Source of the DNA: Treponema sp.
GTDB lineage: Bacteria > Spirochaetota > Spirochaetia > Treponematales > Breznakiellaceae
Direction of reading: 5' to 3'
Assembly: GCA_009776715.1 (NCBI GenBank)
Contig: WRNF01000029.1
Location: 1 to 5,164, forward strand
DNA length: 5,164 bases
In this document: positions 1,340 to 5,164 of the stretch, piece by piece
How the letters are laid out: each line of letters starts with the position of its first letter
Numbering within the stretch: position 1 is the stretch's first letter
The notes under the pieces: generated by a model
What the model saw: only the letters and a program-made list of their open reading frames with translations
What the model was told of the DNA's origin: nothing
Databases searched by the model: none
Program-made: the position numbers and the translations under genes

Positions 1340-1810
1340 ATGGCCGATGCTAATCAATTAGTTACTTTTCAGCTTGGCGAAGAGTTATACGGAATTAATA
1401 TCATGGATGTTAAGGAAATTGTTCGGGTTCAAAACATCAGGGCCATTCCTAATGCTCCAACTTATGTAGAGGGAATCTTCAATCTAAGAAGTGAAATAAT
1501 TCCCGTTATCAATCTGCATAAGCGTTTTCATTTGAAGAAGCTCATTAATTCTGAAGAAGATGAATTGCTGTCTGGTTTCATTATTATTGATTTAGACGGA
1601 ATGAAACTTGGAATAATAATCGATAGGATTTCACGGGTTATCACCATCGAAAAAGAAGAAATACAGCCGCCGCCGCAGATGTTGTCCGGAATAGGGGCCG
1701 AATATATTCTGGGTGTGGTCCGCCAGGAGCAAGGGTATTTAATTATACTTGACATTAGAGATCTGTTTAATCCGAGAGAGCTGCAAAAAATCGCCGAACT
1801 AAGACGGTAA
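1340..1810 (+). CDS. cheW: chemotaxis coupling protein CheW
   Basis: The 156-residue protein is one full-length CheW domain. CheW is a cytoplasmic scaffold that links methyl-accepting receptors to the kinase CheA. Visible signatures are the opening strand QLVTFQLGEELYGINI (6-21), VKEIVR (24-29), the core NLRSEIIPVINL (48-59) with the conserved Arg50, GIIIDRISRVITI (91-103), and the closing ILGVVRQEQGYLIILDI (123-139). Where most CheW proteins have glycine after that Arg, this one has Ser51. AAGGGGG (1329-1335) lies 4 bases before the ATG. No cheA, cheY or receptor gene is in the window, so this is probably one of several CheW paralogues, as spirochaetes often carry. It appears to be first in the operon; the next gene starts 19 bases after its stop. 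Confidence 0.95.
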   Translation: MADANQLVTFQLGEELYGINIMDVKEIVRVQNIRAIPNAPTYVEGIFNLRSEIIPVINLHKRFHLKKLINSEEDELLSGFIIIDLDGMKLGIIIDRISRVITIEKEEIQPPPQMLSGIGAEYILGVVRQEQGYLIILDIRDLFNPRELQKIAELRR

Positions 1811-1829: not shown

Positions 1830-2918
1830 ATGAAGATAGAAGCCTATTCGCCAACCATCAGAAGGAAGGAGATGGATGCCGTTCTTACGGCAATGGTAGA
1901 GGATCATATCGGTCCTGGAGAGCGATCCCGGTTATTGGTGCAAACTGCAAAAGAACAAATTCGTTTTGATTATGCCCTGTCATTGCGCAGCCCGGCTATT
2001 GCGCTGTATCTCGCCCTTAAAGCCCTTAATCTTGAAGCAGGGGACGGGGTGCTGCTTTCGGCATTGTCTCCCCGTTATTATGCCAATGTTTTAGCCGATC
2101 TGCAGTTGAAGCCCCTGTTTTGCGATGTTTCTTTTTCCCTTCCCTGCATAAACCGCGAAAGCATTGAAAAAGCGCTTTTGGAAAAACCGCCGGGCATTGA
2201 GGCCAGTTGCATATTGCTGCACCATACGCTTGGCTTTATTCCGGAAACTGCTAACATGAGCGGGCTTGGAATCCCGGTTATTGAAGACATTTCGCAGAGT
2301 TATTCTGCCGCAGAAAATGAAACTGAAGCAATGCCCGGCAATGAATCAGCTGCAAAGGATGCGCATCAGCCTGGCCGCGGCAATTTTATTATTTTGGGGC
2401 TTGAAGAACGCGATGTGCTTACCTCCGGGGGAGGGGCATTACTGTATGCCATGAACCGGAAAGACTCCTCGGCGCTGAGAAATTTTTCCGGCATCCCCAA
2501 TGAGTACTGCCTGCCGGATATTAACGCATCGCTTGCCGTAGTGCAATTTAAGGAAGCTCCCCGAAACGCATTTAGAAGGTCTGAAATTGCCCAGGCCTAT
2601 ACCCAGGCCTTTGCCCAGGCAAGGCAGAAGGGAAAACATACACTGTTTGCCGGCATTGGCAGCGCAAGTTATAACAATTATGCTTTTCCTTTGGTATTGG
2701 AAACCGGAATGAAAGATGTCATATCTTATGCGCGTAAAAAAGACATTATCGTAGAAAATGCCTTTGAACAGAGCATTATCGGATCCGGCATTATGGATGC
2801 GGCATTGTGCCCAACAAGTTACTCATTATCCTTGCGTACAGCATTGTTTCCCTTGTATCCTCGGCTTGGTTCACAGGAAGCACAGCGTGTTTCTAAATTA
2901 ATTATGACCCTTCCTTAA
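1830..2918 (+). CDS. DegT/DnrJ/EryC1/StrS-fold protein lacking the PLP lysine (probable pseudo-aminotransferase)
   Basis: At 362 residues it has the usual length of the DegT/DnrJ/EryC1/StrS fold-type I aminotransferases of sugar metabolism. Family landmarks are visible: an N-terminal P-x-I segment with IGPG (27-30), LKALNLEAGDGVLLSA (63-78), FCDV (97-100), VIEDISQS (150-157) with the Asp and Gln that normally contact pyridoxal phosphate, TSGGGALL (198-205), LPDINASLAVVQF (228-240) and FPLYP (340-344). In active members a lysine lies 6-9 residues before the glycine cluster. Here the segment is NFIILGLEERDVLTSGGG (185-202) with no lysine. The SGTAAL loop reads RSPAIAL (53-59). Residues 161-183 form a polar insertion. 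The enzyme is therefore probably inactive as a transaminase; function unknown. No strong RBS precedes 1830. ATG 1872 has purine-rich sequence upstream, but residues 2-14 align with the family N-terminus, so 1830 is kept. Confidence 0.85.
   Translation: MKIEAYSPTIRRKEMDAVLTAMVEDHIGPGERSRLLVQTAKEQIRFDYALSLRSPAIALYLALKALNLEAGDGVLLSALSPRYYANVLADLQLKPLFCDVSFSLPCINRESIEKALLEKPPGIEASCILLHHTLGFIPETANMSGLGIPVIEDISQSYSAAENETEAMPGNESAAKDAHQPGRGNFIILGLEERDVLTSGGGALLYAMNRKDSSALRNFSGIPNEYCLPDINASLAVVQFKEAPRNAFRRSEIAQAYTQAFAQARQKGKHTLFAGIGSASYNNYAFPLVLETGMKDVISYARKKDIIVENAFEQSIIGSGIMDAALCPTSYSLSLRTALFPLYPRLGSQEAQRVSKLIMTLP
2589..2624 (+). repeat. three tandem 12-base units inside the DegT-like gene
   Basis: GCCCAGGCCTAT, ACCCAGGCCTTT and GCCCAGGCAAGG follow one another directly in frame. 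They encode AQAY, TQAF and AQAR (residues 254-265), on a helix that is normally ARRxxIAxRYxxxL-like in the family. The third copy has diverged at its end. This looks like local duplication in a tolerant helix. Confidence 0.7.
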
Positions 2919-2932: not shown

Positions 2933-3832
2933 ATGGCTAAGGCTGTAAAAGCGGTTTTGTTTGTCAACCCTTACAAGAAAAACGCATCCTTAATTGCTGA
3001 TGCAATTCACAGCGAACTGGAGAGCAGGGCTGCCAAAGTTTCGGTATTTAATTCAAACAGCGGTTCAGTGCCCGACGATCATTGGGACATTGCCTTTAGT
3101 TTGGGAGGAGACGGCACGGTTCTGAATGCTGCAAGAATGCTGGCCGCATCGAAAACGCCCATTATCCCCATACGCCTGGGCACCCTGGCGTTTCTGGCCG
3201 GCGTGGAGAATGATGACTGGCTTATGGTGTATGAACAATGGCTTAATAACACTGCAAGAATTTCCAGGCGCTGCATGCTGGAATTTTCGGTTAAACGCAA
3301 TGGCCTGGCTGTTTTTCATAATTTTTGTTTAAATGACATAGTGATTTCTTCATTGGGAATTGCTAAATTAATAAGGCTGAAGGTAGAAACAGAACTGGAG
3401 GGCAAAGAAATTGCCGGGCTTGGGTATTACCGGTCAGACGGGCTTATTGTTGCCACAGCGACCGGTTCCACCGCGTATTCCCTGGCTGCCGGGGGCCCCA
3501 TTCTTGACCCGGAAATGGAAGCGCAAATTATCAACCCTATTTGTTCTTTTTCGCTTTCCAGCCGCCCCATGGTGCTTCCGTCCAGACAGATTTTGCATAT
3601 AGGTATTGAAAATGAGCAGCGCAGCGGGGTATTATTAACAGTAGACGGACAGGAGACATTTGAATTGCATCCGAATGACATTATTACCGTACACCAATCG
3701 CCTCATTACGCCCTGCTTTTAACAACCGGGCGGTCGGCATATTATGCGGCGCTCAAAGAAAAATTGGCATGGGGATACGGATGCGGCATTTTGGACAATG
3801 GCATAAGTTCCCATGGAGGCGGTAATGCTTGA
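2933..3832 (+). CDS. nadK: NAD kinase (ATP-NAD kinase)
   Basis: This 299-residue cytoplasmic enzyme phosphorylates the 2'-hydroxyl of NAD to make NADP (EC 2.7.1.23) and so supplies NADPH for biosynthesis. Length is typical. The nucleotide-binding GGDGT is at 58-62, with Asp60 the family's key residue. LNDIVIS (133-139) carries the conserved Asn-Asp, and YRSDGLIVATATGSTAYSLA (166-185) contains the TGSTAY motif. AGGPI follows at 186-190, SSRPMVLP is at 209-216, and the late VDGQ is at 237-240. The segment that often reads N-x-G-x-LGFL is RLGTLAFL (81-88), with Asn and Gly replaced, a mild departure. It lies 14 bases after the DegT-like gene and overlaps recN by 8 bases. Its last codons contain the recN RBS, which implies translational coupling. 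Confidence 0.96.
   Translation: MAKAVKAVLFVNPYKKNASLIADAIHSELESRAAKVSVFNSNSGSVPDDHWDIAFSLGGDGTVLNAARMLAASKTPIIPIRLGTLAFLAGVENDDWLMVYEQWLNNTARISRRCMLEFSVKRNGLAVFHNFCLNDIVISSLGIAKLIRLKVETELEGKEIAGLGYYRSDGLIVATATGSTAYSLAAGGPILDPEMEAQIINPICSFSLSSRPMVLPSRQILHIGIENEQRSGVLLTVDGQETFELHPNDIITVHQSPHYALLLTTGRSAYYAALKEKLAWGYGCGILDNGISSHGGGNA
3815..3819 (+). promoter_or_regulatory. ribosome binding site of recN inside the nadK 3' end
   Basis: GGAGG lies 5 bases before the ATG at 3825. It sits within the codons for the nadK tail HGGGNA. The recN start precedes the nadK stop (TGA 3830-3832), so ribosomes ending nadK can re-initiate there. This RBS fixes the recN start. Confidence 0.8.
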
Positions 3833-5164
3833 AGAACTGAGCATTAGAAATTATGCCTTAATCGATACAATTTCTCTGGCTTTCCGCTCAGGATTTAACG
3901 TGCTAACCGGGGAAACAGGAGCGGGCAAATCCATTATTGTAGGATCATTAAGCCTGTTAATGGGAGGGAAGGCCGAAGCGGACGTTATTCGATCCGGAAA
4001 AGAAGAAGCAAGCGTCAGTGCGGTAATTTCAATTAACAAGGACAACAGCGAGGCGCTGGAATGGCTTAAAAGCCGCGATATTGCCTGCGAAGACGGCGCG
4101 GTAATTGTCCGGCGCACCATTAAAACCAGCGGCAGGGGTTCAATATTCATTCAGGATACGCCTGTTACCAGGGGAGACCTTGAAAGTTTTATGGGCTTGC
4201 TTTTTGACCTGCACGGCCAGCACAATCACGAATCGCTTTTGCACAAGGAAAACCACCGCCGTTTTCTGGACCGTTTTGCCGGAATTGAAACGGAAGTAAT
4301 GGAATATAACAAGACATTCTTAAAACTGGTGGAAATGCGAAGGAACCTTGATAATGCATGCAACTCGCAAAAGGACCGTGATGCGAAACTTGAAATTCTG
4401 CAATATGCCGTTGATGAAATTAATGCCGCCGCGCTTCGTGCCGGTGAAATGAAGGAACTGGAAAATGAAGCGCAAAGGCTCAGTGATTTTGAAAAATTGG
4501 CAGGAAACGTAAACACTGCCGCTAATGCGCTTTTTGATGACGAGGAGTCGGTGTTAAGCCTTTGCCGGCGCACAAAAAATGCAATGGAAAATGCGGCCCA
4601 AATTGACGCATCGCTTTCTTCCCTGAATAAACGTTTTGAAGAACTTTTTTTTGAACTGGAAGACATTGCCGGCGATTTCCGCACTTACTCGGCAGCTTTA
4701 AGTTATGATCCCAAGCGGCAGGAAACGGTGGATGAACGCCTTGCCCTGTTGTACAAATTGAGGAAAAAATACGGCGGGGGCGCTGCGGGCAGCCCGGAAG
4801 AATCAATCCTTGCTTACCGCTCCTCGGCGGAAGCGGAAATTGAAACACTGTCCACAATAGAAGAAAACCGCGGCAAGCTGAAAACTGACATTGCCGCTTT
4901 GGAAAAAGAGCTTGTGAGCGCAGCGGCTGCATTGCGGCAGAAACGGACAGCCGCGGCATTACACTTGAGCGAATGCATCACTGCCATTCTTAAGCGGCTG
5001 GGAATGCCCAATGCCTGCTTTTCGGCATCGGTAACGCCAAAAATTAAGGGTGAAGGCGGGCAAAGTCCCGTTTGCGGCCCCTGGGGCGCCGAGGATATTG
5101 AATTTTTAATTTCTGCCAATACCGGGGAGCCGCTTAAAGACTTGTCCCGCATAGCGTCAGGCGG
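3825..5164 (+). CDS. recN: DNA repair protein RecN, 3' end outside window
   Basis: RecN is an SMC-like ATPase that acts early in double-strand break repair with RecA. The frame from the ATG at 3825 is open to the last base (446 full codons, no stop) and reads without a frameshift. MLEELSIRNYALID (1-14) is the typical RecN opening, followed by the Walker A motif TGETGAGKS (28-36). GRGSIFIQDTPVT (103-115) and LLFDLHGQHNHESLL (125-139) match the family's second and third blocks. A Glu/Lys/Ala-rich coiled-coil arm covers about 150-380. The C-terminal head begins with IEFLISANTGEPLKDLSRIASG (425-446), and the window ends inside the ABC signature (LSKIASGGELSR in the family). Known RecN proteins are about 550-570 residues, so about 110 residues including Walker B are missing. 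It overlaps nadK by 8 bases. Confidence 0.96.
   Translation, partial: MLEELSIRNYALIDTISLAFRSGFNVLTGETGAGKSIIVGSLSLLMGGKAEADVIRSGKEEASVSAVISINKDNSEALEWLKSRDIACEDGAVIVRRTIKTSGRGSIFIQDTPVTRGDLESFMGLLFDLHGQHNHESLLHKENHRRFLDRFAGIETEVMEYNKTFLKLVEMRRNLDNACNSQKDRDAKLEILQYAVDEINAAALRAGEMKELENEAQRLSDFEKLAGNVNTAANALFDDEESVLSLCRRTKNAMENAAQIDASLSSLNKRFEELFFELEDIAGDFRTYSAALSYDPKRQETVDERLALLYKLRKKYGGGAAGSPEESILAYRSSAEAEIETLSTIEENRGKLKTDIAALEKELVSAAAALRQKRTAAALHLSECITAILKRLGMPNACFSASVTPKIKGEGGQSPVCGPWGAEDIEFLISANTGEPLKDLSRIASG

Follow-up and report, generated by a model that had tools for sequence, protein, structure and literature searches.

A DegT-fold protein without the Schiff-base lysine, encoded between cheW and nadK in Treponema sp. 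and conserved among spirochaetes

The window analysed here, a stretch of 5,164 nucleotides (nt) from Treponema sp. (contig WRNF01000029.1), carries between cheW and nadK a gene for a DegT-family protein that lacks the lysine with which such enzymes form a Schiff base with pyridoxal 5'-phosphate (PLP). The gene is a full-length, uninterrupted ATG frame of 362 amino acids (aa), and its product scores 70.9 bits against PF01041 (cut-off 19.8), which places it in that family by homology and fold. An earlier note, made from the sequence alone, had recognised the frame, its neighbours and the fold landmarks VIEDISQS and FPLYP, all of which we recovered; the structure prediction that it proposed gave a confident model in which, as in the sequence, the DegT/ArnB fold is retained. 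The features of the locus, all on the plus strand, are as follows.

1340..1810, plus strand: cheW (PF01584, 118.1 bits), ending 19 nt upstream of the DegT-fold gene
1830..2918, plus strand: the DegT-fold gene, an uninterrupted ATG frame for a 362-aa protein that lacks the Schiff-base lysine
1986..2006, plus strand (residues 53-59): RSPAIAL, where canonical enzymes have the phosphate loop (N/S)S(G/A)T; Arg53 is invariant
2286..2288, plus strand: codon of Asp153, the ring-nitrogen aspartate, which is kept
2307..2378, plus strand (residues 160-183): loop of variable length in the alignment and of lower confidence in the model (predicted local distance difference test, pLDDT, 63-65 at residues 161-180)
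2403..2405, plus strand: codon of Glu192, invariant in the branch; Y/F/H in canonical enzymes
2412..2414, plus strand: codon of Asp195, the catalytic-lysine position (ArnB Lys188) by profile and MAFFT alignments
Residues 150-157 of the window protein: VIEDISQS
Residues 340-344 of the window protein: FPLYP
2933..3832, plus strand: nadK (PF20143, 99.6 bits; PF01513, 40 bits), 14 nt downstream of the DegT-fold gene
3813..5162, plus strand: a frame which we take, from its position, to be recN, cut by the window end (AAA_23 match, SMC_N below cut-off; 20-nt overlap with nadK)

The position of the missing lysine was located both by profile comparison and by multiple alignment. When a 35-member family profile was compared with PDB chains, Asp195, which follows Arg194, aligned with the lysine of 7b0m, of perosamine synthetase (3bn1) and of ArnB (1mdo), and in 4oca, the K188A form of ArnB, the residue aligned with it is the alanine; the family stretch ILGLEERD-LT-GGG is set against FSFNGNK-IITTGGG in 7b0m, FSFHAIK in ArnB and FSFFGNK in perosamine synthetase. 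MAFFT alignments, gap-free in that stretch, also place the lysine at column 195. The earlier note had correctly read RSPAIAL at residues 53-59 and no lysine within residues 185-202, and had suggested Glu192 or Glu193 as the residue in the lysine's place; that suggestion is off by two or three residues and is ruled out by both alignments.

The lysine-less protein belongs to an old, strongly conserved branch in spirochaetes. Among genomes around one treponeme a match was found in 135 of 147, two of them weak (G034, G141), and in a sample of the phylum in 253 of 296, some of these being weak and perhaps ordinary paralogues; the best homologues of the window protein share at most 72% identity with it. 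Column 195 holds no lysine in any of the 218 treponeme-side rows (D187 S20 G6 C2 A1 Q1 N1), a set in which the window protein occurs twice (P0001, P0002), one open reading frame is counted as both L002 and L040, and the partial frames L069 (254 aa) and L096 (281 aa) were entered as fragments. Lysine is equally absent from 117 further homologues (D77 G18 S16 C4 H2; K 0/117). A further 60 loci were taken from the 253 phylum genomes with a match; 24 of these are linked to nadK (G11 S4 D4 N3 C1 H1; K 0/24). The other 36 deep rows, a more distant group (L135-L170) that we call the sister group, have lysine in two (L151, L164), arginine in three and other residues in 31; all 120 relatives listed for L151, of 5,087 matches, carry the lysine. 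As a control, lysine stands at column 195 in four initial canonical rows and in 28 of 30 DegT loci from 20 spirochaete genomes, the other two (L189, L190) belonging to the lysine-less family; the 28 controls are the best-scoring loci returned, and they come from 18 of those genomes.

In G350 and G402, the genomes of L189 and L190, the lysine-less protein is the sole PF01041 match spanning the whole profile, other matches being partial. Separately, in three related genomes (L165, L166, L169) arginine appears to have replaced the catalytic lysine independently, with SATR for ATK.

In this family neither the usual internal aldimine nor the ping-pong cycle is possible when the Schiff-base lysine is missing. 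The lysine-less protein would thus be unable to run that cycle and would not be an ordinary sugar aminotransferase, and databases that call it an aminotransferase are probably in error. A PLP transaminase might nevertheless persist if the lysine were shifted by one residue or supplied from elsewhere, since lysine occurs at column 194 in 11/218 and 10/117 rows and Lys13 is present in 74 of 78 non-redundant rows. However, column 194 is variable (R, G, K, A, D, F, H, S) and is Arg194 in the window protein, while Lys13 is not fixed (31/43 rows of the window's branch, 25/34 of the sister group). Another lysine in the Schiff-base position was the objection that the earlier note raised against itself; no lysine column is fixed among the lysine-less rows, the best being filled in 56 of 77, and the alignment to known structures gives aspartate at that place. 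We regard a transaminase of this kind as highly improbable.

The rest of the cofactor pocket is partly kept and partly rebuilt. Asp153, which we take to be the residue in contact with the pyridine nitrogen in DegT-family enzymes, is present in 218/218 treponeme-side rows, 117/117 further homologues and 32/32 canonical rows. Arg53 and Glu192 are each invariant in 218/218, 117/117 and 24/24 nadK-linked deep rows; no arginine appears at position 53 among the listed residues of the 32 canonical rows, which have Y24 F5 H3 at position 192, and in the sister group none of the 34 lysine-less rows has either residue. At the phosphate site the window protein has R53-S54-P55-A56 for the canonical N/S-S-G/A-T, with Ser54 retained, and Gly190 for the serine five residues before the lysine (K-5); canonical rows hold G/A55 in 28/32, T56 in 20/32 and S190 in 32/32, so that neither the S(G/A)T loop nor the serine at K-5 is found here. 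Further changes in the window protein are Asn/Arg227 to Cys and Glu37 (canonical in 32/32) to Val. We infer that Arg53 and Glu192 either occupy the old phosphate site as an ion pair or bind a new ligand. The earlier claim that both PLP anchors are lost was overstated: the lysine is gone and the phosphate loop is rebuilt, but the ring-nitrogen aspartate is kept in every treponeme-side row.

That invariant aspartate underlies the main rival explanation, in which the protein would be, like ColD and E1, a PMP (pyridoxamine 5'-phosphate) or PLP enzyme that needs no Schiff-base lysine, with Asp153 helping to hold the cofactor noncovalently and another residue doing the acid-base chemistry. Ser190 points the same way, since 18 of the 43 rows in the branch of the window protein retain it, as does the sister group, where more of the pocket is kept (N/S53 in 32/34, S190 in 20/34, H156 in 20/34, H317 in 33/34); precedent comes from ColD, E1 and SpnQ, described in PMC8987622 as aminotransferase relatives that have histidine for lysine and use PMP. 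On the other hand, Asp, Gly and Ser are the usual residues at column 195, histidine occurring in 0/218, 2/117, 1/24 and 2/36 rows, and the window protein itself has the altered phosphate loop and Ser190 replaced. We consider this explanation unlikely for the window protein. Noncovalent PMP chemistry may be better sought in the sister group, because more of its pocket is kept.

The three charged residues could also be read as the catalytic site of a cofactor-independent enzyme, with Arg53, Asp153 and Glu192, all in segments of the old cofactor site and all present in 218/218 rows, serving a new reaction in the old pocket. A salt bridge would fit this invariance equally, and the neighbouring genes hint at no reaction or substrate; such an enzyme seems to us quite improbable.

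The gene is under long-standing selection, which speaks against recent decay of the family, as the earlier note had argued from the intact frame. Of 125 ortholog pairs, the 30 most similar gave ratios of nonsynonymous to synonymous substitution (dN/dS) from 0.043 to 0.175 by a simple Nei-Gojobori estimate; these pairs overlap through shared genes, and none includes the window protein. These ratios, together with the invariant residues, argue against decay, and long frames are found in nearly all retrieved rows. A catalytic residue lost under purifying selection is the pattern of a pseudoenzyme. The view that the gene is a decaying relic of an aminotransferase could draw on G149, where a stop lies inside the match (its frame, L069, is the 254-aa fragment), and on genomes from which the gene is missing; set against the substitution ratios, the long frames and the invariant residues, it is scarcely credible. 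One in-frame TGA each was also seen in the strong PF01041 matches G328:C1:3394435-3395502 and G042:C1:552804-553865.

Gene order around the locus is widely shared. In 97 treponeme-side rows, nadK lies downstream in 90 (two without room, five without it), recN downstream in 85 (two without room, ten without it) and cheW upstream in 77 (ten without room, ten without it at the thresholds used). All 24 deeper nadK-linked rows have nadK and recN downstream, with cheW upstream in 12 (six without room, six without it), and nadK follows the gene in four of the other 36 (one without room, 31 without it). The earlier note had mentioned a homologue at the same place in T. pallidum; we found one, in the same gene order, in a genome of 1,139,633 bp (L088), a size that matches T. 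pallidum. We also searched 34 genomes without a good match (20 of the 43 no-match phylum genomes, with 12 no-match and two weak ones from the 147 on the treponeme side) and found nadK in 21. In ten genomes that are Borrelia-like in size (L209-L211, L214, L215, L217-L221), cheW lies directly against nadK, and in the presumably treponeme-like L202 the two are about 245 nt apart, with no DegT gene between them in either case; the gene has therefore been lost from, or was never present in, these genomes.

Phylogeny was examined in quick IQ-TREE runs, with the Shimodaira-Hasegawa-like approximate likelihood-ratio test (SH-aLRT) as the sole support measure and alignment columns 189-201 excluded. The branch with R53 and E192 groups together in the first tree (43 rows, support 100) and in a second tree that adds relatives from other sources (20 rows, support 100). 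In the second tree a single clade (43 rows, support 94) holds the lysine-less rows apart from L165 and L166, which have arginine; lysine-bearing rows (L151 with its relatives, and L164) lie beside it. The first tree does not recover a single lysine-less clade; there L136, L151, L164, the group of L165 and two larger groups all arise from an open fork. The simplest reading, with moderate support, would be one main loss of the lysine early in spirochaetes and a separate change from lysine to arginine.

Other observations on the surroundings of these genes stand apart from this argument. Upstream of cheW in the window, the only SPOR match of frame 140-1210 falls below threshold (E 0.082), and a SPOR-domain neighbour was dropped as a functional clue; no relatives of this frame were found in 11 spirochaete genomes, in a search that had no positive control and is hence uninformative. 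Scans of the window gave 11 promoter-like sites, where 5.4 were expected, and a single terminator-like site, which lies within cheW on the minus strand; neither was used in the interpretation. In the sister group, a PTPS/QueD-like gene, defined as a similarity cluster, lies directly downstream in 13 of 36 loci (for example L140 and L148), PF01242 having been tested in one, L155 (L155:3404-4072), and a divergent SPOR/DPBB lipoprotein occurs in 15 loci, its domain having been tested in L137 only.

Taken together, we favour with moderate confidence a selected DegT-fold protein that has a non-transaminase role and a repurposed cofactor pocket. In the branch linked to nadK, the two segments that carry the phosphate and the lysine in canonical enzymes contain Arg53 and Glu192; these residues, which occur together, would form an ion pair or new binding contacts, and with Asp153 they may make up a pocket for a different ligand. 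The weakest steps are the last: that the protein serves as a ligand-binding, regulatory or structural component, and that it may be co-expressed with cheW and nadK-recN, neighbours that suggest co-expression by their position but indicate no function.

Several points weigh against this interpretation. Asp153 is invariant despite the loss of the lysine, and a pyridine-type cofactor may therefore still bind; Ser190 persists in 18/43 rows of the branch, so the phosphate site has not been dismantled everywhere. By its title, entry 4oca is a crystal structure of ArnB K188A with both PLP and the nucleotide sugar UDP-4-amino-4-deoxy-L-arabinose (UDP-Ara4N), which means that a lysine-less DegT pocket can hold PLP. 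Arg53 and Glu192 mark one branch, perhaps a single event, and their co-occurrence is for that reason weak evidence of contact. Finally, the ten Borrelia-like genomes and the treponeme-like one keep cheW and nadK without the gene. A fuller evolutionary account, which we put forward tentatively as possible rather than probable, is that a sugar aminotransferase of early spirochaetes lost its lysine and Schiff-base chemistry, that the nadK-linked branch later acquired an Arg53-Asp153-Glu192 site for a new ligand or chemistry, and that the result was kept even where the genome is strongly reduced, to about the size of that of T. pallidum.

Retention in so small a genome points to a needed function. 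Source databases give many of these proteins the name of a working enzyme, either perosamine synthetase or dTDP-4-amino-4,6-dideoxygalactose transaminase, in the 120 entries listed from each of two sets of 2,371 and 2,490 matches; if the lysine-less proteins are not transaminases, spirochaete sugar pathways inferred from them would be wrong. A search of the open-licence literature found no published work on the lysine-less family or its function. With a lysine-less branch across much of the phylum and the pocket rebuilt in one part of it, the family offers a good natural case of repurposing of a PLP fold.

Among known systems, the LCB1/SPTLC1 subunit of serine palmitoyltransferase resembles this protein in being a fold-type-I, lysine-less protein maintained by selection; it pairs with a catalytic subunit, whereas none is encoded beside the window gene. 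ArnB, the UDP-4-amino-4-deoxy-L-arabinose aminotransferase (1mdo, 4oca), has Lys188 where the window protein has Asp195, the loop SSAT for RSPA, and serine at K-5 for Gly190. The nucleotide-sugar 3-dehydratases ColD, E1 and SpnQ, as described in PMC8987622, share the condition of aminotransferase relatives without a Schiff-base lysine; they differ in having histidine where the window protein has Asp195, to which the changed phosphate loop is added, and a PMP 3-dehydratase of the ColD/E1 type was rejected on the missing histidine. By homology and fold the protein belongs to PF01041; the residue at the lysine position puts it outside the PLP aminotransferases, and the lack of histidine there puts it outside the ColD type.
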